A stretch of 64,000 nt of DNA from Hoyosella sp. YIM 151337 (GTDB lineage Bacteria; Actinomycetota; Actinomycetes; Mycobacteriales; Mycobacteriaceae): contig NZ_JAPEIQ010000031.1 in NCBI RefSeq assembly GCF_026041215.1, positions 1-64,000 of the forward strand, written 5' to 3'. Shown here in pieces: positions 287 through 41,573 of this stretch; position 1 is the first letter of the stretch, and every line of letters starts with the position of its first letter. The notes beneath the pieces were generated by a model. The model worked only from the letters and a program-made list of their open reading frames with translations, did not search any database and was not told where the DNA came from. The translations under genes were made by a program, and so were the position numbers.

Positions 287-1141
287 TCAGCAGCCGCCGG
301 ACCCCGTCACGCTGGTGGCCCGCTGCTCGAGACGGCTGATCATTCGCTGCGTGCGCTTGTCCCGGACAAGCAATGCATCGAAGCCGACGTTAACCAGCCC
401 GCGCAGCAGCGCGTACGCCGTCCATGCTCGGGGCGCGATCGTGCGGGCAGACCGTCGCGCTATGCCGTCGCAGATTGTCACCGCAGCATCTCGCGCGGTG
501 ATGCGCTGGCTGAACGGCCACGGGAAACGGTCACCGAGTTCGCGGCCGAGTTCATCGTCGTCGAGCATTGCCTGAGTCATCGCGGTCTCGACAATGCCGA
601 AGTACGCCACCTGGGCGGTGGCCCCGTGGACTGCCAGTTCGATACGTAGCGCGCGGCCTAGTTGCTCCACCGCCGCTTTGGTGATCATGTACGGCGATCC
701 GGCCATACCCGGGGCGAACGCAGCGACGGAGGCGACAACAACCACGTGTCCGCGAGTAGCGATCACATCGTCAAGGACCGGTCGCACAGTGTTGTAGACA
801 CCGGTGAGATTGATGCCGACCACGCGATCAAATTCGGTGTCATCCATGACCCGCAGCGTCGCCGGTTTTGGCGTGACGCCAGCATTAGCGACAACGATGT
901 CAATGGGACCTAGTTCGGCCTGAACTTTCTTAACCGCGAGCTTCATGGCGTCACGATCTGAAACGCTGACACCGATGCCGATGTCGCACGCTGCCTTTAC
1001 CGCGGCCGCCTCATCGACATCGAGGATCGCGACCCGTGCACCGCGCCGAGCGAGCTGCCTTGCCACTTCGAGGCCGATGCCCCCGCCACCACCGGTGACC
1101 AGTGCGGTCCTGCCCCGCACATCCAGTACGTCATCAGCCAT
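287..1141 (-). CDS. Short-chain dehydrogenase/reductase (SDR)
   Basis: 284-residue classical SDR, expected to oxidise or reduce an alcohol/ketone pair with NAD(P). The N-terminal cofactor loop TGGGGGIG is at about residues 16-23, NAG follows at about 87, and the catalytic Ser with a YMITK active-site motif sits near residues 141-156. A C-terminal extension of about 60 residues past the core resembles SDRs found beside BVMOs (SadH-like). The start ATG overlaps the end of the upstream BVMO gene by 8 bp, so the two are translationally coupled. It is the last gene of the operon starting at 4581. A secondary alcohol/ketone interconversion just before the BVMO step is inferred from context. Confidence 0.9.
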   Translation of the reverse strand: MADDVLDVRGRTALVTGGGGGIGLEVARQLARRGARVAILDVDEAAAVKAACDIGIGVSVSDRDAMKLAVKKVQAELGPIDIVVANAGVTPKPATLRVMDDTEFDRVVGINLTGVYNTVRPVLDDVIATRGHVVVVASVAAFAPGMAGSPYMITKAAVEQLGRALRIELAVHGATAQVAYFGIVETAMTQAMLDDDELGRELGDRFPWPFSQRITARDAAVTICDGIARRSARTIAPRAWTAYALLRGLVNVGFDALLVRDKRTQRMISRLEQRATSVTGSGGC

Positions 1142-2615
1142 TGCAGCCTGCCTTGATCACATAGTCACTGCTGTTGAAGTTCTTTACGCGGCTTCGGTAT
1201 TCGAAGCTCCAGTTGGGATATAGCCCGGCGTTACGACCATCGGGAGTGGTGTAGTAGCTCTTGCAGCCACCTTTCAGCCACACCGTGTTTTCGCTTCGCT
1301 CTTCGACTTCCGCCATGAACCTGTGCTGTACCTCTGGGCGCACCTCGATGCGCTGGGCGCGGAACGAGTCGATCGTTTTCAGTGCGTCGATGATGTAGCT
1401 GATCTGCTGCTCGATCATGTAAATCGCGGACTGATTCCCGACCGCACCAAATGGACCGAGAATCGAGAACACATTAGGAAACCCAGCGGTTGTGACGCCG
1501 AGGTAGCTCTGTGGCCGCTGCTCGTAGCGCTCACCGAGCGAAATCCCTGCGGGACCGAAGATCCGTGCCACCGCGCCTGGCGGCATGGTAAATCCGGTCC
1601 CGAATATGATCGTGTCCACGGGATGCTCCGTACCATCGCGCGTGGTGATGCTGCGCGGCCTGATTTCTGCGATCCCGCTTGTTTCCACGGTGACGTTCGG
1701 TTGTGTCAGTGCTGGCAGATACGAGTCCGAGAAGATGGCACGTTTGCACCCGATCATGTAGTCGGGGGTGAGCTTTCGGCGCAGTTCGGGGTCTCGAACT
1801 TGGCGCAGCAACTGCAGCCGCCCGAATGCTTCGAATGGGTGCCGGAATCGGCGATCGACGAAACCCGGCAGACCGAAGCTCTCGATCATGCCGTAGTACG
1901 CGGCACGCAATCCGCGCTGCACAGCGGGGACCTTGCGCAACAATGCCCGCTCCGGGGCGAGCGTCGGACGGTCCAGACGTGACACAATCCATGGTGCGCT
2001 GCGCTGAAAAACGGTGAGATGTTTGACGATTGGCTGGATCTCCGGGATGAACTGAACGGCCGAGGCGCCGGTGCCGATCACCGCGACGCGTTCGCCCGTC
2101 AGCTCATGTTGATGGTCCCAGTGCAGCGAGTGAAACGCCCTGCCCGCGAAGCTGTCGAGGCCAGGCAAAGTCGGTATCGACGCTTCGGTGAACAGGCCGG
2201 TCGCGGTCACCAGAATACGAGCGGTAAGCTCGCCGCTCGCTGTGTTGAGTCGCCAGTGCGACGCCTTGTCGTCCCACCGGGCCTCAAGGAGTTCCGAATT
2301 GAAACGCATGTGCCGGATGACGTCGTGATCTGCTGCCAATCGGCGCAGGTATGTCAGAATCTCGTGTTGTTTACCGTACATCCGAGACCAGTTCGGGTTG
2401 GGCGCAAACGAGTAGCTGTACAGGTGGGAAGGTACGTCGCAGGCGCAGCCTGGATAGGTGTTGTCGCGCCAGACACCGCCGATCGCCGCGGCGCGTTCAA
2501 GGACAAGGAAGTCGGTGAAGCCGGCTTCGCGCAGTTTGATGGACAGCCCGATTCCAGCGAACCCAGCTCCGATAATGACAATGTCGACGTGGTCGACGTC
2601 GTGCGGTTTCGGCAT
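1134..2615 (-). CDS. Flavin-containing / Baeyer-Villiger-type monooxygenase (copy 1)
   Basis: 493 residues, the usual length of class B flavoprotein monooxygenases. The FAD Rossmann motif GAGFAG is at 16-21, the BVMO fingerprint FxGxxxHxxxWD at 156-167 (F156, G158, H162, W166, D167) and the NADPH motif GTGASA at 181-186. The family inserts one oxygen from O2 next to a ketone to give an ester or lactone; some members (MymA, EthA) also act on S or N. It lies 14 bp after the reductase gene and overlaps the SDR gene by 8 bp, in the operon led by the PF10118 gene. It is one of three paralogues in the window. The substrate cannot be read from sequence. Confidence 0.92.
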   Translation of the reverse strand: MPKPHDVDHVDIVIIGAGFAGIGLSIKLREAGFTDFLVLERAAAIGGVWRDNTYPGCACDVPSHLYSYSFAPNPNWSRMYGKQHEILTYLRRLAADHDVIRHMRFNSELLEARWDDKASHWRLNTASGELTARILVTATGLFTEASIPTLPGLDSFAGRAFHSLHWDHQHELTGERVAVIGTGASAVQFIPEIQPIVKHLTVFQRSAPWIVSRLDRPTLAPERALLRKVPAVQRGLRAAYYGMIESFGLPGFVDRRFRHPFEAFGRLQLLRQVRDPELRRKLTPDYMIGCKRAIFSDSYLPALTQPNVTVETSGIAEIRPRSITTRDGTEHPVDTIIFGTGFTMPPGAVARIFGPAGISLGERYEQRPQSYLGVTTAGFPNVFSILGPFGAVGNQSAIYMIEQQISYIIDALKTIDSFRAQRIEVRPEVQHRFMAEVEERSENTVWLKGGCKSYYTTPDGRNAGLYPNWSFEYRSRVKNFNSSDYVIKAGCNG

Positions 2616-2629
2616 GAGGGTGAAGCTCC

Positions 2630-3685
2630 TTAGAGATCGAGTACCAGCGGCCCGGCAGCAGACCGCGAGATGCAGAGGAGCATCGACTCCCGCCGTTCTG
2701 ACTCAGTGAGCAGACGATCCCGGTGCTCAACGTCTCCGCATAGCACTCGTGTCTTGCACGAGCCGCAGAAGCCCTGCTGACAGGAGTAAGCGACACCCGG
2801 CAGGACGCGCCGGACTGCGGCTAACGCAGTTTCGTCCGCCGCGACGTCCACTGAGGCACCAGTTCGCGCGAGCGTGAGGTGAAACGGTGTGCCGCCGCGG
2901 ACCGGCGGTGCCGAGAACCTTTCCGTATGCAGCGACGCTGAGGTGCTGAACACTGGCAGCAACGAGCGGGCAGCGTCGAGCATGGGTGGTGGCCCACACA
3001 CGTATACCGCCGCCCCGCGTGGCGTGGCTTGAAGCTGGCCGGCAAGGTCGGGAGTGCCATACTCGTCGTCCGGCATGATGTGCGATGGTGCGCCGATCGC
3101 CCCGATTTCCGGCAGGAACGGCATGGTTACACGCGTCCGGCCGGTGTACACGAGGGTCGCCGGGACGCCCCGGCGGGCCGCGGCCCTCAACATCGGGAGG
3201 ATCGGAGTAATCCCGATTCCACCGGCGACGAAGAGGTACGCGGGTGCGTCGATCATCGGAAATGCGTTACGCGGCCCGCGTATTCGCAGCGTATCGCCCG
3301 GCCGCAGAACGTCATGGATCTCACTGGACGCGGAACCACCGGCGATCCTTCGTACTGCGATGCGATACCTGGTTTTGTCGGCGGGATCCCCGCACAGCGA
3401 ATATTGCCGCTGTCTTCCGGATGGGAGGAACACATCGAGGTGGGCACCGGGCGTCCACGCTGGCAGAGCTGCATAATCGGGCGCGGTAAACGCCACGCTG
3501 ACAACATCTTCAGCGATGTGTTCGATGCAGTCGACGAGAACATCGTGGTCGTAGCCGTCTCGGCGCACCGGCCGCGGCGTTCCGATGATGGGCACCTCCG
3601 GGCTGTTCACCACGACATTGCGATAAGCCGTCAGCGCTGTCGATAGCAGGGCGAGAGAGCGCTCGCGGGGCACTGCCGCCGTCAT
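2630..3685 (-). CDS. FAD/NAD(P)-2Fe-2S oxidoreductase (phthalate dioxygenase reductase type)
   Basis: 351 residues with the three modules of an oxygenase reductase: flavin-binding barrel with RQYSLCG at 93-99, NAD(P) domain with GGIGITP at 155-161 and CGPPPM near 230, and a C-terminal plant-type ferredoxin whose cluster ligands are C302, C307, C310 and C338. It should pass electrons from NAD(P)H one at a time to an oxygenase. BVMOs take NADPH directly and need no such partner. The 4-bp overlap with the upstream PF10118 gene (3682-3685) therefore suggests that this reductase serves the PF10118 protein. The partner is inference; the enzyme class is clear. Confidence 0.92.
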   Translation of the reverse strand: MTAAVPRERSLALLSTALTAYRNVVVNSPEVPIIGTPRPVRRDGYDHDVLVDCIEHIAEDVVSVAFTAPDYAALPAWTPGAHLDVFLPSGRQRQYSLCGDPADKTRYRIAVRRIAGGSASSEIHDVLRPGDTLRIRGPRNAFPMIDAPAYLFVAGGIGITPILPMLRAAARRGVPATLVYTGRTRVTMPFLPEIGAIGAPSHIMPDDEYGTPDLAGQLQATPRGAAVYVCGPPPMLDAARSLLPVFSTSASLHTERFSAPPVRGGTPFHLTLARTGASVDVAADETALAAVRRVLPGVAYSCQQGFCGSCKTRVLCGDVEHRDRLLTESERRESMLLCISRSAAGPLVLDL

Positions 3686-4581
3686 GATGTGCTCTCGGTC
3701 TCTGTGCTCTCCGCTGCTCGCGCGGCTGGTGAGATCGCGAGGTATCGGATCGCCGCGTCGAGGTCGCCCATGTCGGACGGGTGAAAGTTCGGGCGCAGGT
3801 ATTTCGGCATTTCGGTGATAAATACGGTGAAGCTGGGGATTTTCCCGCGCCGCGTGGCCGTGATGTAGTTCAGGATTGGGTGCTTCGCTTTTTCTGGCTC
3901 AGGATCGTTCCGAACGAGATATCGCATTGTCACGGCATACAGACCGATCAAGGTCGCGGCTGCAAGCAACGCGGTTCGAGTCCTGCGGGTGTAGCTTCCG
4001 TCGAGGTACTGGAAGGCGTCGAAAACGACGTTGCGGTGCTCGACTTCCTCAGCACCATGCCATCGAATGAGGTCGAGCATCATGGGGTGCATATCTTCGA
4101 TCTCTTCGGAGTCGAGGAACCACTGACCGATGACGGCAGTGAAGTGCTCCATCGCGGCGTAGAGACCGAGCCGTTCTTTGAGCCACTGCTTCTTTGCTCG
4201 CCCGGTGAGGCCCCGCTCCCCGATTACCCGGTCCGCGAAGTACTGCATCCGCTCGATCACCGGCTGTATAGGAACCCCGTTGCGTTCGAGGTGTTCGCGC
4301 ACGCCTTCGTGTGAGCTCGCGTGCATCGACTCTTGTCCGATAAAGCCCTGGACCTCTTCACGCAGTCGCTCGTCGTGGATATACGGCAGAGCTTCGGCGA
4401 GCGCCGCCGCCATCGCCCGCTCCCCTTCTGGCAGCACGAGATGCATGAAGTTGAAGAATTGAGTGGCTACCGGCTCACCCGGCAGGTAGTGCAGCGGCAC
4501 GCCTGACCAGTCGAACGTGACGTTGCGGGCGGTGATCGCGTACGCCTCGTTGGCGTACCGGCGCGAGGTTGTCGTACCCAT
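3682..4581 (-). CDS. PF10118-type 'metal-dependent hydrolase' with ferritin-like diiron ligand pattern
   Basis: 299 residues, matching the family annotated only as predicted metal-dependent hydrolase. The ligands visible look like a carboxylate-bridged diiron four-helix bundle: E54, E84-S-M-H87, E145 (next to H146) and E179-V-E-H182. A hydrophobic segment at about 204-222 could be a membrane anchor. AAAGGAG lies 6 nt before the ATG. It is the first gene of a four-gene operon, followed with 4-bp overlap by a 2Fe-2S reductase, then a BVMO and an SDR. I infer an O2-activating hydroxylase rather than a hydrolase. The tandem TetR-type operators lie 22-55 bp upstream of the start codon. Confidence 0.85.
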   Translation of the reverse strand: MGTTTSRRYANEAYAITARNVTFDWSGVPLHYLPGEPVATQFFNFMHLVLPEGERAMAAALAEALPYIHDERLREEVQGFIGQESMHASSHEGVREHLERNGVPIQPVIERMQYFADRVIGERGLTGRAKKQWLKERLGLYAAMEHFTAVIGQWFLDSEEIEDMHPMMLDLIRWHGAEEVEHRNVVFDAFQYLDGSYTRRTRTALLAAATLIGLYAVTMRYLVRNDPEPEKAKHPILNYITATRRGKIPSFTVFITEMPKYLRPNFHPSDMGDLDAAIRYLAISPAARAAESTETESTS

Positions 4582-4603: not shown

Positions 4604-4636
4604 GAATCAGACGATTCAACTTGAATCAGATGATTC
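4604..4636. promoter_or_regulatory. Tandem palindromic operators GAATC-N4-GATTC
   Basis: Two near-identical 14-bp palindromes, GAATCAGACGATTC at 4604-4617 and GAATCAGATGATTC at 4623-4636, have centres 19 bp apart in the gap between the divergent operon (start 4581) and TetR gene. The second reaches to 2 bp before the likely tetR ATG at 4639 and covers a plausible -10 (TCAGAT, 4626-4631). Binding by the neighbouring TetR protein would repress both directions; that is inference from position. Confidence 0.8.
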
Positions 4637-4638
4637 CA

Positions 4639-5310
4639 ATGGCACGGCCTCGTGTCAAGTACCATGAGCAAATGCAAATGGAGAGTTCCGCACCCGCCAA
4701 GAAGTGGCGTGGCCAGACTCTCCATGACCGAGCCGATGAACGGCGCGAGCAGCTGCTCGACACGGCGTACGACCTGGTTGCTGCGGAAGGCGTGGGCGCA
4801 CTCACGATGCGTGCGGTCACGCGAGCAGCCAACCTGTCACCGCGATACTTCTACGAAAGCTTCCCCGACCGCGATGCGCTTCTCTTCGCCGTCTTCGACC
4901 GAACCGTGGAACAACTGCAGCAGCGGGTGGCGGCTGCAATGGCCGATAGCGAAGGCATGGAGGCCAAGTGCCGCGCTGCGTTCAGCGCGGCTGCGCACGC
5001 CTTCGACGAGGATCCGCGGGCCGCACGTCTGCTGCTGCGCGAAGCACTCGCCGATAACATGCTGCGGGAACACGCACTAGCCGCGCTCCCTCATTTCGTC
5101 TTCGCGACTGCCACGCACTTCCTGCCTGAACCAGCGGACCAGCACGGGGTTGACGCACTGCGCCTGCAACTCGACATGTCAGCGCTATCCGGGGCCGTCG
5201 TCACACTGTTCCTCGACTGGACAGAAGACCGCCTTGCTATTCCGCGCGAGGAACTTGTCGACTACTGCACCGAACTGGTGGTCGGAATCCTCATCCGCCA
5301 CGCGGGCTGA
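4639..5310 (+). CDS. TetR-family regulator of the divergent BVMO/diiron operon
   Basis: TetR-type repressor with an N-terminal helix-turn-helix (segment TMRAVTRAANLSPRYFYESF) and a variable ligand-binding C-terminal half. The reading frame is open from a TTG at 4621, but that start lies inside the operator. ATG at 4639 leaves the operator upstream and sits 7 nt after a -10-like TCAGAT, as expected for a leaderless transcript, giving 223 residues. ATGs at 4672 and 4678 are also possible. The gene is divergent from the operon starting at 4581. Its 3' end overlaps the convergent esterase gene by 49 bp. The effector is unknown, probably a substrate or intermediate of the neighbouring pathway. Confidence 0.88.
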   Translation: MARPRVKYHEQMQMESSAPAKKWRGQTLHDRADERREQLLDTAYDLVAAEGVGALTMRAVTRAANLSPRYFYESFPDRDALLFAVFDRTVEQLQQRVAAAMADSEGMEAKCRAAFSAAAHAFDEDPRAARLLLREALADNMLREHALAALPHFVFATATHFLPEPADQHGVDALRLQLDMSALSGAVVTLFLDWTEDRLAIPREELVDYCTELVVGILIRHAG

Positions 5311-6269
5311 GCGCCGATCCTCGCCCGCACGAATTCACCGACATCACACAGCATTTCCCGGCCCTCGGCGGATGCGGGGAACAGCGCGCTGAAACCGTGG
5401 ATTTGGCCGCGCCACAGATGCAGGACGCACGAAACTCGCGCGTCACCAAGCCGGGCAGCCATCGCTTCGATGTCGGTGCGCAGAACTTCAGAACGCAACG
5501 CGACAAGCAGCACCGGAGGCAAGCCTGTGACATCGGCGTTCGCCGGAGAAAGCGCCGCATCCAGCTCGCCATCCACCTCGCCCCCGAGCCGCGCCACAGC
5601 CTCGAACACAGATATTGGCAGAAGCGCTTCAGTCTGCGCACCCGATGCTGCGCGCTTTGTCGCGCAATCGAGGTCGAGCCACGGCGAGATGCCGACAAGC
5701 CCACTCGGCAGTGGCATCCCCTTGTCCCGAGCGGCTATTGCTGTCGCGAAGGCCAGAAAGCCGCCCGCAGATTCGCCCGCTACGACGATCCGGTCAGCGG
5801 GGACGTCATGCTCCAGCAACCACCGGTAGCCGGAAACGCAGTCGCTCACCGAGTCACGGATCGTTGCGTGCGGCAATTTGCGGTAGCCGACATGCATGAC
5901 GGGCAGCCTCGCACACCCGGCAAGCAGCGCGATCATTCGCCGGTGGGTGTTGAGCCCGCCTGCTACAAACCCGCCGCCATGCAGGTACAGAAGCGCCCCA
6001 CCGGATGAGCCCTGCACGCCCCGGGGCGAGACAATCTCGGCCTCACAGGCGCCGAGCGACACTCGATGGTATTCGCAATCCCTGGGCCGGGGCAGAAGTC
6101 CTGCCGCCCGGTCGATCAGCGACGCGCTCGCCATGACAGTCGAGTTCAGCGGAAGCACGCCGAGAGTCGGCCGGACCACGGTGCGAGCGAGACTCACGAC
6201 AGCGCGCGAGCGCATGCTGGGACCGAAGACCCCGTTCCCGGCGTGGTGCACCACGGCGTATGCGGACAT
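5262..6269 (-). CDS. Alpha/beta hydrolase, HSL/LipR-type esterase
   Basis: 335-residue serine esterase of the hormone-sensitive-lipase group: oxyanion motif HGGG near residue 95 (YLHGGGFVAGG), nucleophile GESAGG near 165, and a late Asp and His (HGFSALF near 300) completing the triad. The start lies 6 bp after the fadD stop, so the two are cotranscribed. It could hydrolyse the ester formed by the nearby BVMO, with FadD activating the released acid; this is inference. A close relative sits at 39387-40379 in the second BVMO cluster. The 3' end overlaps the convergent tetR by 49 bp. Confidence 0.9.
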   Translation of the reverse strand: MSAYAVVHHAGNGVFGPSMRSRAVVSLARTVVRPTLGVLPLNSTVMASASLIDRAAGLLPRPRDCEYHRVSLGACEAEIVSPRGVQGSSGGALLYLHGGGFVAGGLNTHRRMIALLAGCARLPVMHVGYRKLPHATIRDSVSDCVSGYRWLLEHDVPADRIVVAGESAGGFLAFATAIAARDKGMPLPSGLVGISPWLDLDCATKRAASGAQTEALLPISVFEAVARLGGEVDGELDAALSPANADVTGLPPVLLVALRSEVLRTDIEAMAARLGDARVSCVLHLWRGQIHGFSALFPASAEGREMLCDVGEFVRARIGAQPAWRMRIPTTSSVQ

Positions 6270-6275
6270 GGCCAG

Positions 6276-8069
6276 CTAGGCACGTACCGTTTCAGCGCTG
6301 TAGAGCTCTTCGATGTCAGCTGCGTACCGCGCATCAATGGGCTTGCGCCGCAGTTTCATCGTGTGCGTCAGCACCTCGGAGCCTGGCTCCCAGTACTCTT
6401 CGAGCACACGATAGCGCTTGATCTGCTCCGCCCGGGAAAGCGACTGATTTGCATCCGCGACGGCACGATCGAGCGTCTCCCGGAGTTCCTTGCTCGCCAC
6501 CACGGAGGAGAGTTCGCCGCTGATACCGCGCCGCTCCGCAAACGCGGCGACTGCTTCCTGATCGAGGACAATGAGGGCAACGTTGTAGCTGCGATCGTTG
6601 CCGATTGCCACGACCTGCGAAATTAGCGGACACGCCGCTTTCACCGCGTTTTCGATGTTCGCCGGTGACATGTTCTTGCCACCGGCGCTGATGATGAGTT
6701 CTTTCTTGCGATCAATGATGGTGATGTACCCCTCCTCGTCGATCGTTGCGATGTCACCGGTGTGCAGCCAGCCTTCGCTGTCGATCGCCTCCGCGGTCTG
6801 TTCTGGGCGGTTACGGTATCCGCGCATGAGGATGGGACCCGCGATGAGCAATTCGCCATCGTCGGCGAGTTTCGCCCGGACGCCCGGGGCTGGTCTGCCG
6901 ACAGTGCCGAGTCGCATTTCCCCGTCCGGGCTCATGGTGCTCAGTCCGGAGAGTTCCGACATGCCCCACGCGTCCGATAGCGGTACCCCAAGGCCGATGA
7001 AGAACTTGATGACGTCTGGTGCGATCGGCGCAGCACCCGAGAGCGCAACGCGCGTCTGATCGAGACCGATCTTGTTCCGGATCTTGCCGAGTACCAGTTT
7101 GTCCGCGACAGCGAACTGGGCAGCGAGCAGCAGACCAGGCTTTTTGCCGCGACCGCTCATGGCCGCAACGTGCTGCCCCGTCGCGATCGCCCACTTGCAG
7201 AGCGCCTTCTTCACCGGGCTTTGCTCACCCTCAATGGCCGCAAGAAGGGCTACACGCACTTTCTGCCAGACTGTGGGAACCGCTCCGAAAACCGTGGGCC
7301 TGACGTCAGCGAGAGCCCCGACGACTTCCTTGGGGTTGGCGACGCAGGTTACCTGGTTGCCGCACACGGTCTGGATGTAGTGCGCGGACCAGCGGTCAGC
7401 GACATGGGCGCTCGGCAGAAAGGAAATGATCCGGTCCTCTGCAGTGACGCCCATGAGCAACTCTGAGCCTTCCACCTGCGCAAGCATGCCTGCGTGCGTG
7501 AGTTCCACGCCTTTGGGCGCGCCGGTCGTACCCGAGGTATAAATGAGCGTCAGGACGTCGCCTGGCGCGACTGCGCGCCAGGAACGCTCGAAATCGAATT
7601 CGGCCGGCGCAGCAGGCGGCACTGACTCGAGTGACCGCGTACCCTCTGGAGCGCCATCGATGCATACGATGTGCTGTACTGCGGTCTCTTGCGCCCCCTC
7701 GAGCAGCACCGGCACGAACGCCTTCTCGCAGATGACGACCTTATTGGCAGCATCGGTGAAGAGGAAGCGGATCTGGTCGGCTGAGGACGTGTTGTAGATC
7801 GAGAACGGAATCGCCCCAAGGTGCTGGGCCGCAGTGTCGACGAAATGGAATTCGGGCCGATTCGTCATCATGATCGCGACGGTGTCACCGTGCCCGATTC
7901 CTAGGGTATGCAGCTGGGACGCGATCGTTCGAACGCGCTCACCGTACTGTGCCCAGCTCACCCCTGTCGGAGAACCGGGCGTGCGCACTGCGGTACGGGA
8001 CGCGAAGTCGCGAACGGTGTTCTGGAAGGCTTCGCACATCGTCGTGGCTTGGGAAGATCGCGTGGTCAT
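6276..8069 (-). CDS. Long-chain fatty acid-CoA ligase (FadD family)
   Basis: 597-residue AMP-forming acyl-CoA synthetase. The ATP/AMP signature YTSGTTGAPKG is at 177-187, the adenylate-binding WGMSE and the hinge region with TGDIATIDEEGYI and IDRKKE are present, and the length fits long-chain FadD/FadD15-type enzymes. It activates free fatty acids to acyl-CoA with ATP. The start is supported by AAGGAG 5 nt upstream. The promoter carries the best copy of the regulon operator. The esterase gene follows 6 bp later in the same transcript. Confidence 0.93.
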   Translation of the reverse strand: MTTRSSQATTMCEAFQNTVRDFASRTAVRTPGSPTGVSWAQYGERVRTIASQLHTLGIGHGDTVAIMMTNRPEFHFVDTAAQHLGAIPFSIYNTSSADQIRFLFTDAANKVVICEKAFVPVLLEGAQETAVQHIVCIDGAPEGTRSLESVPPAAPAEFDFERSWRAVAPGDVLTLIYTSGTTGAPKGVELTHAGMLAQVEGSELLMGVTAEDRIISFLPSAHVADRWSAHYIQTVCGNQVTCVANPKEVVGALADVRPTVFGAVPTVWQKVRVALLAAIEGEQSPVKKALCKWAIATGQHVAAMSGRGKKPGLLLAAQFAVADKLVLGKIRNKIGLDQTRVALSGAAPIAPDVIKFFIGLGVPLSDAWGMSELSGLSTMSPDGEMRLGTVGRPAPGVRAKLADDGELLIAGPILMRGYRNRPEQTAEAIDSEGWLHTGDIATIDEEGYITIIDRKKELIISAGGKNMSPANIENAVKAACPLISQVVAIGNDRSYNVALIVLDQEAVAAFAERRGISGELSSVVASKELRETLDRAVADANQSLSRAEQIKRYRVLEEYWEPGSEVLTHTMKLRRKPIDARYAADIEELYSAETVRA

Positions 8070-12745: not shown

Positions 12746-14248
12746 TCACGCATCCTTTCCAGCGCGGGTGATGGAGTAGTCGGAAAGCCTCAGCCGTCGT
12801 GTTCGGAGCCAGTACGTCGAGACAGTGCCCGGCCAGTTGTTGGTGATGCGGCCGGCCGCGTTGCGGTACCAACTTGAGCACAGCGTCCACACCGAGCGGT
12901 CGAGGCGCTGCTGCAGCTTTTTGTTGAACTCGGCCTCGACTTCGGGGCGCACTTCGATCGCCGACCCCGGTCGTTTCGCGAGCACCTCCACGGCCTGCCG
13001 AATATAGCGGGCCTGCGCTTCGAGCATGTAGACGATCGACCCCGCGCCAAGATTCGTGTTCGGACCGTACATGACGAACATGTTGGGAAAGCCTGAGACG
13101 TTCATACCGAGGTAGGCGTGTGCGCCTTCGGGCCCCCACACATCTTGCAAGGCTTGCCGGTCCCGGCCGAAGATCTTGATCGGCCAGAGGAACTCTGTCC
13201 CTTTGAAGCCGGTGCCGTAGATGATGACATCGACCTCATGGTGGGCACCGTCAGCGGTGACGATGCCCTTTGGCGTCACTGCCGTGATCGCGCTGGTCTT
13301 GACGGTGACGTTCGGCCTGGTCAACGCTGGGTAATAGTCGTTCGACAACAACCCGCGCTTGCATCCCGCCTCATAGTCTGGTGTGAGCTTCGCACGCAAG
13401 TCTTCGTCCTCAACCTGCTTATGCAAGTGATTGAGCGCGAGCTTCGCCACGGGCGGCCGGATGGCCGGGATGTCAACGAGCGCGAGCGCGAGGAACTCGT
13501 AAATACCCCAGCTGAGGAATCGCTCGGCCAGCCGGACGGGCGGTATGCGCGTCAGCACAGTGTGGTGCAGAGGAGTGTATTCAACGTCAGGTTTCGGCAG
13601 CACCCACGCTGCCGACCGCTGGAACAGGGTCAGGTGGGACACGTCCGACACGATCTGCGGAACGAATTGGATCGCGCTAGCTCCCGTGCCGACAACCGCG
13701 ACCCGTTTGCCCTCGAGGTCAACGCTATGATTCCACTCCGCGGAGTGGAATGCCGGGCCTTCGAAATCGCTGATGCCCGGTAATTCTGGCAGCGCAGGGC
13801 GGGAAAGCTGTCCAGTAGCCATGATCAGCACATCAGCGGTGAGTTCAGCCCCGCCCGAAACCCGAATGGTCCAGGTACCGGTGTTCTCGCTGAACTCAGT
13901 TTCGGTGACCTCGGTGCTGAACTGGATCTTGCCGAGCAGATCGTACTTCTCGGCGACTCCCTTCAGGTACTGAAGGATGTCTGGCTGCTCCGAGAAGCGC
14001 TTGGGCCAGTCCGCCTTGGGCTCATACGAAAACGAGTACAGCGGTGACGGGGTGTCGCAGGCCGCGCCTGGGTAAGTGTTTTCCCGCCACACTCCGCCGA
14101 CGCCGTCCGCCCGCTCGAGGATCGTGATGTTGTGGAAACCCGCCCGCTCAAGTTCCATCGCCATACCGAGACCGGCGAAGCCCGCACCCACGATCACGAT
14201 GGACGGACCGCCCTGCGCGTTGGTGATGTGATTGTTTCGCATCGTCAT
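12746..14248 (-). CDS. Flavin-containing / Baeyer-Villiger-type monooxygenase (copy 2)
   Basis: 500 residues. FAD motif GAGFAG at 21-26, BVMO fingerprint F162, G164, H168, W172 (Asn follows the Trp instead of Pro/Asp), NADPH motif GTGASA at 187-192. Makes esters from ketones or oxidises heteroatoms. The ATG at 14248 overlaps the preceding stop by 4 bp; the second ATG, two codons later (14242), has better spacing to GGAG and may be the real start. Second gene of the operon with the decarboxylase-like protein, ChoD-like oxidase and alpha/beta hydrolase. The most C-terminal residues end in a basic, non-conserved tail. Confidence 0.92.
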   Translation of the reverse strand: MTMRNNHITNAQGGPSIVIVGAGFAGLGMAMELERAGFHNITILERADGVGGVWRENTYPGAACDTPSPLYSFSYEPKADWPKRFSEQPDILQYLKGVAEKYDLLGKIQFSTEVTETEFSENTGTWTIRVSGGAELTADVLIMATGQLSRPALPELPGISDFEGPAFHSAEWNHSVDLEGKRVAVVGTGASAIQFVPQIVSDVSHLTLFQRSAAWVLPKPDVEYTPLHHTVLTRIPPVRLAERFLSWGIYEFLALALVDIPAIRPPVAKLALNHLHKQVEDEDLRAKLTPDYEAGCKRGLLSNDYYPALTRPNVTVKTSAITAVTPKGIVTADGAHHEVDVIIYGTGFKGTEFLWPIKIFGRDRQALQDVWGPEGAHAYLGMNVSGFPNMFVMYGPNTNLGAGSIVYMLEAQARYIRQAVEVLAKRPGSAIEVRPEVEAEFNKKLQQRLDRSVWTLCSSWYRNAAGRITNNWPGTVSTYWLRTRRLRLSDYSITRAGKDA

Positions 14249-36039: not shown

Positions 36040-37566
36040 TCAACGGCTGCTGCGCAAGACCTCCGGTGCTCGCGATGAATCGGAGTGAGCATGACTGTGC
36101 GGCATGCTGGCGCAGTCGTAGTCAGAGACGTCGAACGTACGCAGCTGATTGATGTACTGCGTGGCGAATCCGGGATACATGGTGGGGTTGAACCCCTCTT
36201 CGGTCAGATACCAGCTCTGGCACCCGGAATTCCAGGTGGTGCTGCGAAGCCGGCGCTGAATTGACACGTTGTACCGGTCCTGGCGCTGCTCGTTCACGTC
36301 GAGCAGCACGCGACGGGCCAGGATTTCTTCAACTCCCGCAACGATGTAGTCGATCTGAGCCTCCATGTAGACGAGCGCTGAGTTGTGCCCTGGCCCTGAG
36401 TTCGGTCCGAAGGTGATGAACAGGTTCGGATATCCCGAAACCGCGACGCTTTTGAAGGCATACGCTCCCTTGCCCCACTCTGCCGCCAGCACTCGCCCTC
36501 CGCGGCCCACGACGGGTATCGGAGTTCCCGTCTTCGACACGTCGAATCCGGTGGCGAAAACGATGCAGTCGAATTGATGCTCGATGCCCTCAGCGGTCCT
36601 GATGCCGCGCTCCGAGATCCGGTCAATCGGCCACGTGACGAGCTTGCAGTTGTCACGCTGCAGCGAATGGTAGTAGTCGCTGCTCATCAGCAGTCTTTTG
36701 CAACCGGCGTGGAAGTCGGGTGTCAGCTGGCGGCGCAGCCACGGATCCTTTACCTGCGTGCGGAGGTGTGCTTTGCCGGCTATCTCGATGATTCGGGTGA
36801 ACGGGGTGTTCCACACCGCTCCTAACGCCACCGATTCGTGACCCCAGTACCAGGCGGCGCGGGCGACCTGCTGGGCGATCGGGAACTGCCGATAAATCTG
36901 CTTTGTGAGATGGTGTGTCGGACGGTTTACCCGCGGCAGGACCCAGCCCGGCGTGCGCTGAAATACCTTCACGGACGAGGCTTGCCGGACGAGCTCGGGA
37001 ATGATCTGTACGGCGCTTGCGCCGGTGCCGACAACAGCGACCTTCTTCTCGCGGAAATCGTAGGTGTGATCCCAGCGTGCGCTGTGGATTTTGTGGCCCC
37101 GATAGTCGTCCAGCCCGCGGATCGCCGGAAAGCTCGCGTTCGCAAGTGGCCCAGACGCGAGAATCACTGATCGCGCATAGACCGGTGCCGCAGCAGTTTC
37201 GACGTGGACTCGCCAAAACCCAGCATCCTCATCAAAAACGAGGTCGTTGACGTTGTGGCCGAACCTAATGAAAGGCCGCACGCCGAAATCGTCAGCTATG
37301 CGTTCGATGTAGGTAAGGATCTCCCCGCTTGTGGAATACGTATGCGACCAGTCGGGATTGGGCGCGAAACCGTAGGAGTACAGCCTCGATGGGATATCAC
37401 AGGCAGCCCCGGGATAGGTGTTGTCCCGCCACGTTCCACCAATCCGATCGCCGCGCTCGAAAACGGCGATGTTCGTGATGTTCCGTTGTCTGAGCCGGAT
37501 AGCCGCGCCAATGCCCGCGAACCCTGCACCGATGATGGCCACATCCAGTGGCTGTGCGGCACTCAT
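36040..37566 (-). CDS. Flavin-containing / Baeyer-Villiger-type monooxygenase (copy 3)
   Basis: 508 residues. FAD motif GAGFAG at 13-18, fingerprint Y155, G157, H161, W165, D166 (Tyr in place of the first Phe), NADPH motif GTGASA at 180-185. It ends with a His/Ser-rich tail SHAHSDSSRAP that is not part of the core. The ATG overlaps the stop of the diiron-like gene by 4 bp. Last enzyme gene of the esterase-SDR-diiron-BVMO operon, the likely ketone-to-ester step. Confidence 0.92.
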   Translation of the reverse strand: MSAAQPLDVAIIGAGFAGIGAAIRLRQRNITNIAVFERGDRIGGTWRDNTYPGAACDIPSRLYSYGFAPNPDWSHTYSTSGEILTYIERIADDFGVRPFIRFGHNVNDLVFDEDAGFWRVHVETAAAPVYARSVILASGPLANASFPAIRGLDDYRGHKIHSARWDHTYDFREKKVAVVGTGASAVQIIPELVRQASSVKVFQRTPGWVLPRVNRPTHHLTKQIYRQFPIAQQVARAAWYWGHESVALGAVWNTPFTRIIEIAGKAHLRTQVKDPWLRRQLTPDFHAGCKRLLMSSDYYHSLQRDNCKLVTWPIDRISERGIRTAEGIEHQFDCIVFATGFDVSKTGTPIPVVGRGGRVLAAEWGKGAYAFKSVAVSGYPNLFITFGPNSGPGHNSALVYMEAQIDYIVAGVEEILARRVLLDVNEQRQDRYNVSIQRRLRSTTWNSGCQSWYLTEEGFNPTMYPGFATQYINQLRTFDVSDYDCASMPHSHAHSDSSRAPEVLRSSR

Positions 37567-40505: not shown

Positions 40506-41573
40506 ATGACCAGTTCAACCGTCGAGCAGCGTGCGCACGCACTTCGCGTATCACGCGTCGTCCGAGAAACTGCAGACGCCCTCTCCATCGTTTTTGACAT
40601 GCCTGCCGACGCCCGAAGCGAGTTCACATACTCGCCTGGGCAATTCCTGACGGTGCGCATACCTCACGAGACAGGCGCGATCGCGAGGTGCTACTCGCTT
40701 TCGAGCGCCCCTGCGGTTGACAGCGACCTGCAGATCACGGTCAAGAGAACCCAGCACGGGTACGCGTCGAATTGGATTTGCGACAATATCGAGCCGGGTT
40801 CCTCGCTGCTTTCGCTGCGCCCTGCCGGGATGTTCTCACCCCGCAGATGGGATGCGGATCTCGTTCTTGTGGCAGCTGGCAGCGGCATCACGCCGATCAT
40901 GTCGATCCTCAAAACCGCGCTCGCTTGTCACTCGAACCGGGTTGTCCTCATTTACGCCAACCGAGACATCCGCGACGTCATATTCCACAACGGAATCACG
41001 CAGCTCGAAGCTCGATATTCACACCGGCTTGACGTCATACACTGGCTCGACTCTGTCGACGGGCCACCCATCCCAGAGAAACTTGCCGACCGTATCGCGG
41101 CTGTCCCTCCAAGTGCACACGCCTACCTGTGCGGCCCTGCAGAGTTCATGAAAGTCGCGGAAACAGTACTGCTCGGGTGCGGCGTCAGCGCGGCCAGCAT
41201 CCATCGGGAGGTATTCGCATCGCTGCCCACGGATCCGTTCGCACCGCCGCGGTCACCTTTCCGCCCAACAACCTCGCTCACCGAAGCTAGTCAGCAAGCG
41301 ACGCGGGTTCGCGCCGAAATCGACGGCGAAACGCACACTATCGATTGGCCGCAGGGCGAAGTCCTGCTTGACGCGCTGCTCTCTGAGAACCTGGACGCGC
41401 CATACGTCTGCCGTGAAGGCAATTGCGGCGCGTGCGCCTTCACCTTGCGCGAAGGTGAAGTGGAAATGCTCTGCAACGACACTCTCGACGATTACGACCT
41501 CGAGAAGGGATTGCGTCTCGCGTGCCAGTCGGTAGCGTTAACCGACACCGTCTCGATCGCCTTCGATCAATGA
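40506..41573 (+). CDS. FAD/NAD(P)-2Fe-2S reductase, KshB-like
   Basis: 355 residues from ATG 40506, preceded by AAAGGGAG; the in-frame GTG/ATG starts further up lie in the operator. FAD motif RCYSLSS at 61-67, NAD(P) domain GSGITP at 125-130, ferredoxin Cys ligands C302, C307, C310 and C340. It resembles KshB, the reductase of 3-ketosteroid 9-alpha-hydroxylase, and related diiron-oxygenase reductases. Divergent from the esterase operon under a shared operator, so it probably feeds the ferritin-like diiron protein. Convergent with purF. Confidence 0.92.
   Translation: MTSSTVEQRAHALRVSRVVRETADALSIVFDMPADARSEFTYSPGQFLTVRIPHETGAIARCYSLSSAPAVDSDLQITVKRTQHGYASNWICDNIEPGSSLLSLRPAGMFSPRRWDADLVLVAAGSGITPIMSILKTALACHSNRVVLIYANRDIRDVIFHNGITQLEARYSHRLDVIHWLDSVDGPPIPEKLADRIAAVPPSAHAYLCGPAEFMKVAETVLLGCGVSAASIHREVFASLPTDPFAPPRSPFRPTTSLTEASQQATRVRAEIDGETHTIDWPQGEVLLDALLSENLDAPYVCREGNCGACAFTLREGEVEMLCNDTLDDYDLEKGLRLACQSVALTDTVSIAFDQ

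Follow-up and report, generated by a model that had tools for sequence, protein, structure and literature searches.

Does a bacterial protein that is named a metal-dependent hydrolase in databases act instead as an oxygen-activating diiron enzyme at the head of an oxidation pathway? The question is raised by four tightly coupled genes of Hoyosella sp. YIM 151337 (RefSeq assembly GCF_026041215.1), located in the window, i.e., the whole 64,000-nucleotide stretch analysed (contig NZ_JAPEIQ010000031.1, positions 1 to 64,000, forward strand). In a first-pass annotation, a PF10118 protein with ferritin-like diiron ligands, a 2Fe-2S reductase, a Baeyer-Villiger monooxygenase (BVMO) and a short-chain dehydrogenase (SDR) were proposed as a candidate subterminal oxidation pathway, and PF10118 proteins of this type as O2-activating hydroxylases. 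What had been observed there was confirmed in every coordinate, overlap and residue; the interpretation was supported in part.

Gene arrangement and protein families

The four ORFs are on the minus strand: PF10118 gene, 3682–4581 (299 aa); reductase, 2630–3685 (351 aa); BVMO, 1134–2615 (493 aa); SDR, 287–1141 (284 aa); 4-bp overlap at 3682–3685, 14-bp gap at 2616–2629, 8-bp overlap at 1134–1141. The first protein was assigned by Pfam to Metal_hydrol (PF10118, "Predicted metal-dependent hydrolase") at E 1.4e-73, 248 bits against a gathering score of 33.2. The reductase has FAD, NAD and C-terminal plant-type 2Fe-2S domains in this order, with the motifs CQQGFCGSC, RQYS and GGIGITP, and is of the phthalate dioxygenase reductase (PDR) type; nearest solved structures: P450 monooxygenase chains 6laa/6kbh and phthalate dioxygenase reductase 2pia (E 7.7e-51). 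Its partner here is a PF10118 protein, not a Rieske oxygenase or P450. The BVMO contains GAGFAG (16), FAGRAFHSLHWD (156–167) and GTGASA (181), which fit the two Rossmann GxGxxG/A motifs and the type I fingerprint FxGxxxHxxxW[PD]; cyclohexanone, phenylacetone and steroid monooxygenases are among its nearest solved structures. The SDR has TGxxxGxG, NAG and YxxxK, scores over the PRK05872 cut-off and is a proposed secondary-alcohol dehydrogenase.

Beside the operon lie a hormone-sensitive-lipase (HSL)-type esterase (5262–6269, minus strand; GESAG, Ser nucleophile), a candidate ester hydrolase, and a FadD11-like acyl-CoA ligase (6276–8069, minus strand) that scores below the cut-off of that model. 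The esterase was not found beside the H. altamirensis operon.

Ligand set and predicted fold

The six ligands proposed in the first-pass annotation are present at the given positions: E54 (codon 4420–4422, predicted helix 37–67), E84xxH87 (4321–4332, helix 71–100), E145 (4147–4149, helix 127–157) and E179xxH182 (helix 166–193). They are invariant in 29 of 29 aligned sequences of a phylum-wide sample (a fragment of 93 profile positions was left out) and in 87 of 87 sequences after addition of Burkholderia, Acinetobacter and Pseudoalteromonas; the window is one of the rows in both alignments. Further residues that had not been listed, H91 (4309–4311), W174, H175, E178 and E181, are also invariant. 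H175 was identified as a seventh AurF-type ligand, so that the last group reads H175xxxE179xxH182 (4036–4059); the same motif is seen in the alignment of the AurF family. With H175, order and spacing (E, ExxH, E, HxxxExxH) match the 3-His/4-carboxylate site of the N-oxygenases AurF, CmlI and DnfA (PMC9478400). The DnfA gene cluster also encodes DnfB, an FNR-like protein with a 2Fe-2S domain (PMC9478400). PF10118 differs from these N-oxygenases (PF11583) in being a separate Pfam family with no cross-match at E 0.001, in the extra invariant H91 and E181, and in its neighbours, which are those of carbon, not nitrogen, oxidation.

The AlphaFold model is a confident four-helix bundle (pLDDT 88.1, pTM 0.86) with one ligand group on each of four long helices; convergence of the ligands in space is inferred from this order. 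In Foldseek, CmlI was ranked first (E 0.032, probability 1.00), followed by NrdF and R2lox, no hit reaching E 0.001; VIA Z: 13.3 (ribonucleotide reductase R2), 12.9 (CmlI), 12.0 (R2-like ligand-binding oxidase), 11.9 (AurF), values near 13 being within the range for which the method itself advises caution with helical bundles. The rows inspected (50 of 287 from Foldseek, 50 from VIA) are nearly all ferritin-like proteins, although absence from such partial lists does not exclude a hydrolase fold. No solved relative was found in the PDB by sequence at E up to 1; a profile search at E up to 10 gave four weak hits only, the best being a 4-chloro-allylglycine synthase at E 0.099, which was not counted.

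In profile–profile alignment PF10118 scored 34.1 against AurF (best of 100 column shuffles 20.6) and 31.9 against R2 (best 21.9); both alignments place the two ExxH motifs in ligand register, that with AurF also the extra His, that with R2 also E145. Controls were two TetR profiles, SDR, esterase, FadD, BVMO and reductase profiles and reversed AurF and R2 profiles; the highest of these were BVMO, 25.6 over 17 columns, and TetR, 23.6. The hhalign probabilities are low (5.9 to 50.8%), whereas AurF and R2 find each other at 82.7%, so PF10118 is the more distant relative, and E145 is not aligned to the AurF ligand in three of the comparisons. The R2 alignment shows invariant ExxH, E and ExxH but no HxxxE before the last His, and the operon studied here carries an electron donor rather than a radical-accepting subunit.

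Taken together, the PF10118 protein is very probably a ferritin-like (R2/AurF-type) non-heme diiron oxygenase, and its family has probably been misnamed. A genuine metal-dependent hydrolase is highly unlikely: only database names speak for it, whereas the model is a helical ferritin-like bundle with an AurF-type ligand order and the overlapping partner is an electron-transfer protein. The same seven-ligand order and CmlI as the best Foldseek hit speak for an N-oxygenase acting on an amine, but this reading is very unlikely in view of the SDR, BVMO, esterase and acyl-CoA ligase neighbours and the absence of a PF11583 match at E 0.001. A diiron oxidase or desaturase, removing hydrogens without inserting oxygen and using the reductase as electron donor, is also unlikely; R2lox and stearoyl-ACP desaturase are among the Foldseek hits and such sites support desaturation too, but BVMO and SDR partners need an oxygen-bearing carbon, and a desaturase would still require a later hydration step.

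Linkage to the reductase

Co-occurrence of PF10118 genes with such reductases, named beforehand as a test of the proposal, was examined in several sets of loci. Among 80 related loci (the best of at least 585 confirmed stretches; all Actinomycetota, many of them Nocardia, possibly sharing species with the phylum sample), a close homologue of the reductase (150 bits or more) lies downstream on the same strand within 300 bp in 72 and within 3 kb in 77, with 0 in 677,700 bp of flank beyond 5 kb; at more than 60 bits the count is 78 of 80. One of these loci ends 25 bp after the gene. The arrangement is not due to chance, although the reductase, BVMO and hydrolase profiles were built from loci of the same sets, so that the background concerns close homologues only, and ungapped ORFs were used, so that broken genes can be missed.

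In the broader samples the linkage weakens: the reductase is found at 16 of 30 places in the phylum sample (two of the 30 from the window's own genome) and at 0 of 13 places in one Burkholderia and one A. baumannii record. On a quick tree of 87 sequences, with long branches flagged, the linkage requires 3 label changes and is confined to one actinobacterial clade. The reductase is a true partner, but only in this clade, and the claim that PF10118 proteins generally go with such reductases is rejected for the family. The second PF10118 gene of the own genome also overlaps its reductase gene by 4 bp, and that reductase is the closest of the other hits to the window's (58%, next 41%); the 41% homologue lies between a P450 and a Rieske oxygenase gene. 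The second pair gave no pathway context, being followed by PHP-domain and glycoside hydrolase-like genes.

Pathway neighbours and proposed reaction

Reductase, BVMO and SDR occur together in 39 of the 80 loci. In the phylum sample, BVMO lies within 3.5 kb on the same strand in 4 of 30. SDR and BVMO also flank PF10118 without the reductase in the Burkholderia record and twice in the 4.09-Mb A. baumannii record; three of the four strong BVMOs of the latter lie in this one cluster. Linkage of SDR and BVMO beyond the actinobacterial clade supports the oxidation pathway.

A second type of partner was found, namely hydrolases with the epoxide-hydrolase signature (HGxP and an HDWG Asp nucleophile), alone or fused to an SDR (PRK05855 type). 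They lie within 2.5 kb on the same strand in 14 of 80 related loci, 9 of 30 places of the phylum sample, 2 of 13 proteobacterial places and 2 of 9 plasmid regions (selected from 74 matching records; a tenth region, without annotation, was not counted), against 0 beyond 5 kb in all four sets, again for close homologues only. All 25 examined have both motifs; the nearest solved relatives of the two examples tested are mostly epoxide hydrolases. An R. fascians plasmid has PF10118, reductase and a limonene epoxide hydrolase family gene (another fold); on an Acinetobacter plasmid an Asp-type hydrolase gene overlaps PF10118 by 4 bp; the Burkholderia locus has BVMO, SDR, PF10118 and the hydrolase together. 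These partners fit epoxidation better than hydroxylation in other lineages: the diiron site would epoxidise an alkene, and an epoxide hydrolase would open the product before the dehydrogenase and BVMO steps, as in limonene-type catabolism. As a general account this remains a less likely alternative, since the window operon and the 44 BVMO-type loci among the 80 have no such hydrolase, the esterase beside the window operon has a Ser nucleophile, and Asp-type hydrolases may act on other substrates.

The best reading for the window is reductase-fed C-H hydroxylation. In this view, electrons from NAD(P)H would pass through FAD and 2Fe-2S to the diiron site (E54, E84, H87, E145, H175, E179, H182), which would activate O2 and insert one O atom into an unactivated CH2 of a lipophilic substrate; the SDR would oxidise the secondary alcohol to a ketone, the BVMO would turn the ketone into an ester, and the HSL-type esterase and FadD11-like ligase would then give an acid and acyl-CoA. 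Gene order, families, motifs, ligand conservation, predicted fold, clade-wide reductase linkage and SDR/BVMO linkage outside that clade rest on the computations, whereas iron binding and metal identity, O2 chemistry, electron flow, substrate class, the subterminal alcohol as product, the order of steps and regulation are inferred. The explanation as a whole is somewhat more likely than not; its diiron O2-activating part is held with high confidence, the complete hydroxylation–ketone–ester route in this operon being about as likely as not.

The logic of secondary alcohol to ketone to ester to alcohol plus acid is shared with subterminal alkane oxidation by the sad cluster (SadD BVMO, SadA/SadB esterases; PMC12753306, PMC6304351). 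The sadC gene encodes an alcohol dehydrogenase. In the window, a hydroxylase candidate and its reductase lie in the operon. The mymA operon of Mycobacterium tuberculosis likewise brings together BVMO, SDR, esterase and FadD genes, and is not known to contain a PF10118 or PDR-type reductase gene. MymA is a BVMO (PMC9044951).

No functional study of PF10118 was found in titles and abstract openings of the literature searched, and no paper with COG3687, IPR016516, UCP07580, Metal_hydrol or PIRSF007580, in a collection without most subscription journals, so that absence from print does not follow. One study lists a PF10118 group among candidate proteases under the name metal-dependent hydrolase (PMC8960859); another tabulates an Acinetobacter "metal-dependent hydrolase", which may or may not be a PF10118 protein, and an SDR among genes induced by antibiotics (PMC4201530). 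If the PF10118 proteins are diiron oxygenases, many annotations change (at least 585 stretches) and a compact two-gene C-H oxygenase becomes available. In a proteomic study of long-chain alkane growth no specific subterminal monooxygenase was identified (PMC6304351), although LadA, AlmA or P450s are named for that step by others (PMC13055320, PMC12753306); this operon makes the question directly testable with two proteins. More tentatively, PF10118 may be a whole, mislabelled family of AurF/R2-like diiron monooxygenases, present in Actinomycetota and Pseudomonadota, that carries out the first oxygen insertion of BVMO-dependent subterminal oxidation in one set of lineages and epoxidation in another; the actinobacterial clade would have acquired a dedicated reductase, making it a self-contained two-component hydroxylase, possibly an unrecognised subterminal hydroxylase of hydrocarbon and lipid degraders.

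Regulatory region

A TetR-family regulator is encoded divergently (4621–5310, plus strand; true start probably at a later in-frame ATG) and, in the proposed model, would repress the operon through a double palindrome. A promoter-like site, TTGACA-17-AATCAT (4630–4658, minus strand), overlaps the second palindrome but is no better than expected from shuffled sequence (1 found, mean 1.1). The two tandem GAATCN4GATTC palindromes (4604–4636) are a candidate TetR operator; the tandem pair occurs once in the whole genome with up to 2 mismatches and is also present in H. altamirensis.

Operon and its flanks

The window represents the first 64 kb of a contig (C25) of a 4.9-Mb genome. Four minus-strand genes, PF10118 (3682–4581), reductase (2630–3685), BVMO (1134–2615) and SDR (287–1141), were found in this order, with an overlap of 4 bp, a gap of 14 bp and an overlap of 8 bp, respectively; the arrangement described in the first-pass annotation was thus confirmed. 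The closest named PF10118 relative was that of Hoyosella altamirensis, 80% identical by tblastn and 82% in the alignment. The contig begins inside a truncated plus-strand ORF (2–214, 71 codons) that converges on the end of the operon, so the operon ends at the SDR on this side. On the other side a TetR gene diverges at 4621, and beyond it on the minus strand an HSL-type esterase (5262–6269) and a FadD11-like ligase (6276–8069) are located. Between PF10118 and tetR two tandem GAATCN4GATTC palindromes were found at 4604 and 4623 (4604–4636), overlapping a promoter-like site; 3 such sites were counted in the window (mean of shuffled sequences 0.09). The tandem pair occurs once in the genome with up to two mismatches allowed, and it is also present upstream of the H. 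altamirensis operon; a dedicated local repressor is the natural reading, by inference.

PF10118 protein

All six residues proposed earlier as diiron ligands (E54, E84, H87, E145, E179 and H182) were found at these positions. In the alignment of 29 sequences of the phylum sample, and in that of 87 sequences with Burkholderia, Acinetobacter, Pseudoalteromonas and more actinobacteria added, E54, E84, H87, H91, E145, W174, H175, E178, E179, E181 and H182 did not vary. H175 is of importance: H175xxxE179xxH182 is the helix motif of the AurF family, the 23-sequence alignment of which showed invariant E82, E113, H116, E164, H192, E196 and H199. Lit. data: E88, E123, H126, E182, H209, E213 and H216 are listed for DnfA as the diiron motif shared with AurF and CmlI (PMC9478400). 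The order in PF10118 is the same and the spacing nearly the same; H91 and E181 have no counterpart in that list and may be second-shell residues or extra ligands.

Predicted fold and profile comparison

AlphaFold2 on 42 sequences gave a model of pLDDT 88.1 and pTM 0.86, with predicted long helices 37–67, 71–100, 127–157 and 166–193, each carrying one ligand group; a further helix, 197–224, contains the most hydrophobic segment (205–223). The first Foldseek hits were CmlI (E 0.032 and 0.035, probability 1.00), then NrdF and R2lox; none reached E 0.001 or better. VIA-align Z: 13.3 (R2), 12.9 (CmlI), 12.0 (R2lox), 11.9 (AurF); such values can be generic for helical bundles, according to the note of the program. 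Sequence profiles gave an independent, weak but specific signal: scores of 34.1 (AurF) and 31.9 (R2) were obtained against maxima of 20.6 and 21.9 in 100 column shuffles each, and 25.6 or less for seven unrelated families, and the profiles were aligned in the ligand register. The hhalign probabilities were only 29.5% and 20.0% in this comparison, 14.5% and 50.8% with the 29-sequence alignment, and 5.9% for AurF with the alignment of close relatives, whereas AurF and R2 found each other at 82.7%.

Reductase

The domain order and motifs of the reductase are those of phthalate dioxygenase reductase. Of 80 related loci, 72 have it within 300 bp and 77 within 3 kb downstream, against none in 677,700 bp of more distant flank (this background concerns close homologues only). 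The other PF10118 gene of the same genome also overlaps its reductase by 4 bp, and that reductase is the closest of the other hits to the one of the window (58% identity; 17 rows in all, some of them pieces of one gene). The next (41%), the third closest reductase, lies between a P450 and a VanA-like Rieske oxygenase gene, all overlapping by 4 bp (locus L233 on contig C39 of the same genome, 10071–13500), another reductase–oxygenase set that shows the sort of partner this family serves. The general linkage of PF10118 proteins with such reductases, which was to be checked according to the first-pass annotation, was examined across genomes and is not family-wide: the reductase was found at 16 of 30 PF10118 places in a 296-genome phylum sample (17 genomes with the family) and at 0 of 13 places in a Burkholderia and an A. 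baumannii record. On a tree of 87 sequences the label changes three times, which may be one gain and two losses; other members must use other donors. This limits the general claim but does not touch the ligand evidence.

Pathway partners

Reductase, BVMO and SDR occur together in 39 of the 80 loci; an esterase of the type found in the window lies within 6.5 kb in 12 of 80 and a FadD in 27 of 80. The whole PF10118–reductase–BVMO–SDR operon is also carried by a contig filed as a Bifidobacterium breve MAG (L061), probably misbinned. In the phylum sample BVMO was found within 3.5 kb in 4 of 30 and SDR in 9 of 30 places, so this partnership too belongs to some lineages only. Outside the reductase clade, BVMO–SDR–PF10118–hydrolase was found in Burkholderia (locus L152) and PF10118–SDR–BVMO twice, divergently, in A. 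baumannii (locus L160), one copy beside a TetR gene; three of the four strong BVMOs of that 4.09-Mb record lie in this cluster. Because the SDR and BVMO partners recur across two phyla, the proposed sequence CH2 to alcohol to ketone to ester gains support; BVMO-dependent subterminal oxidation is known chemistry (PMC6304351, PMC13055320, PMC12753306).

A second, unexpected partner was found in other lineages, where PF10118 stands beside an alpha/beta-hydrolase with HGxP and an Asp nucleophile (HDWG), alone or fused to an SDR; both motifs were present in all 25 examined. The PRK05855-type epoxide-hydrolase-like/SDR fusion, which resembles mycobacterial EphD, lies just upstream of PF10118 in loci L070, L071, L074–L076, L085, L087, L099, L246 and others. 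For the two examples tested, the nearest solved proteins were mostly epoxide hydrolases. Such genes lie within 2.5 kb on the same strand in 14 of 80 (related loci), 9 of 30 (phylum sample), 2 of 13 (Burkholderia and A. baumannii records) and 2 of 9 (plasmid regions) places, and none beyond 5 kb; the profile used was built from these partners. On a mobilizable plasmid of Rhodococcus fascians (pGS01; locus L247, 5974–8827) PF10118, reductase and a limonene-1,2-epoxide hydrolase family gene, of an unrelated fold, stand in a row with 4-bp overlaps. On the 87-row tree BVMO linkage changes 6 times and Asp-hydrolase linkage 8 times, losses included, so each association may have arisen more than once. 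This suggests that some members make epoxides; for the window, the neighbouring esterase of which has a Ser nucleophile, hydroxylation remains the better reading.

Taken together, the interpretation of the first-pass annotation was supported in part. Gene order, invariance of the ligands and the clade-restricted linkage with the reductase come from the analysis itself, whereas metal-dependent activation of O2, convergence of the ligands in one site and the hydroxylation step are inferred from sequence, model and gene context: an O2-activating diiron enzyme is strongly favoured, a two-component system with this reductase holds for one clade, and a subterminal hydroxylase is plausible as a hypothesis. 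The protein is not AurF by profile, yet its predicted site is of that kind. No functional study of PF10118 was found in the literature searched.

Further PF10118 loci and related genes

Of 74 plasmid records with PF10118, 54 are from Acinetobacter; in the two Acinetobacter plasmids inspected (L113, L250), PF10118 lies near P450, ferredoxin, FAD reductase, BtrH-like and PaaI thioesterase genes. Two tandem PF10118 paralogues were found in A. baumannii (L155, 5956–7950), with nine PF10118 genes in that record, most of them without the oxidative partners searched for. A 4.09-Mb A. baumannii record labelled plasmid (L114/W02, NZ_CP104448.1) is evidently a chromosome.

Two more BVMO-like genes and one more FAD/2Fe-2S reductase are present in the window (12767–14203, 36115–37551 and 40548–41465); 20 BVMO-like rows were found in the genome, some of them split pieces of one gene. 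The same genome contains three AurF-family (PF11583) genes, on its contigs C34, C6 and C29.
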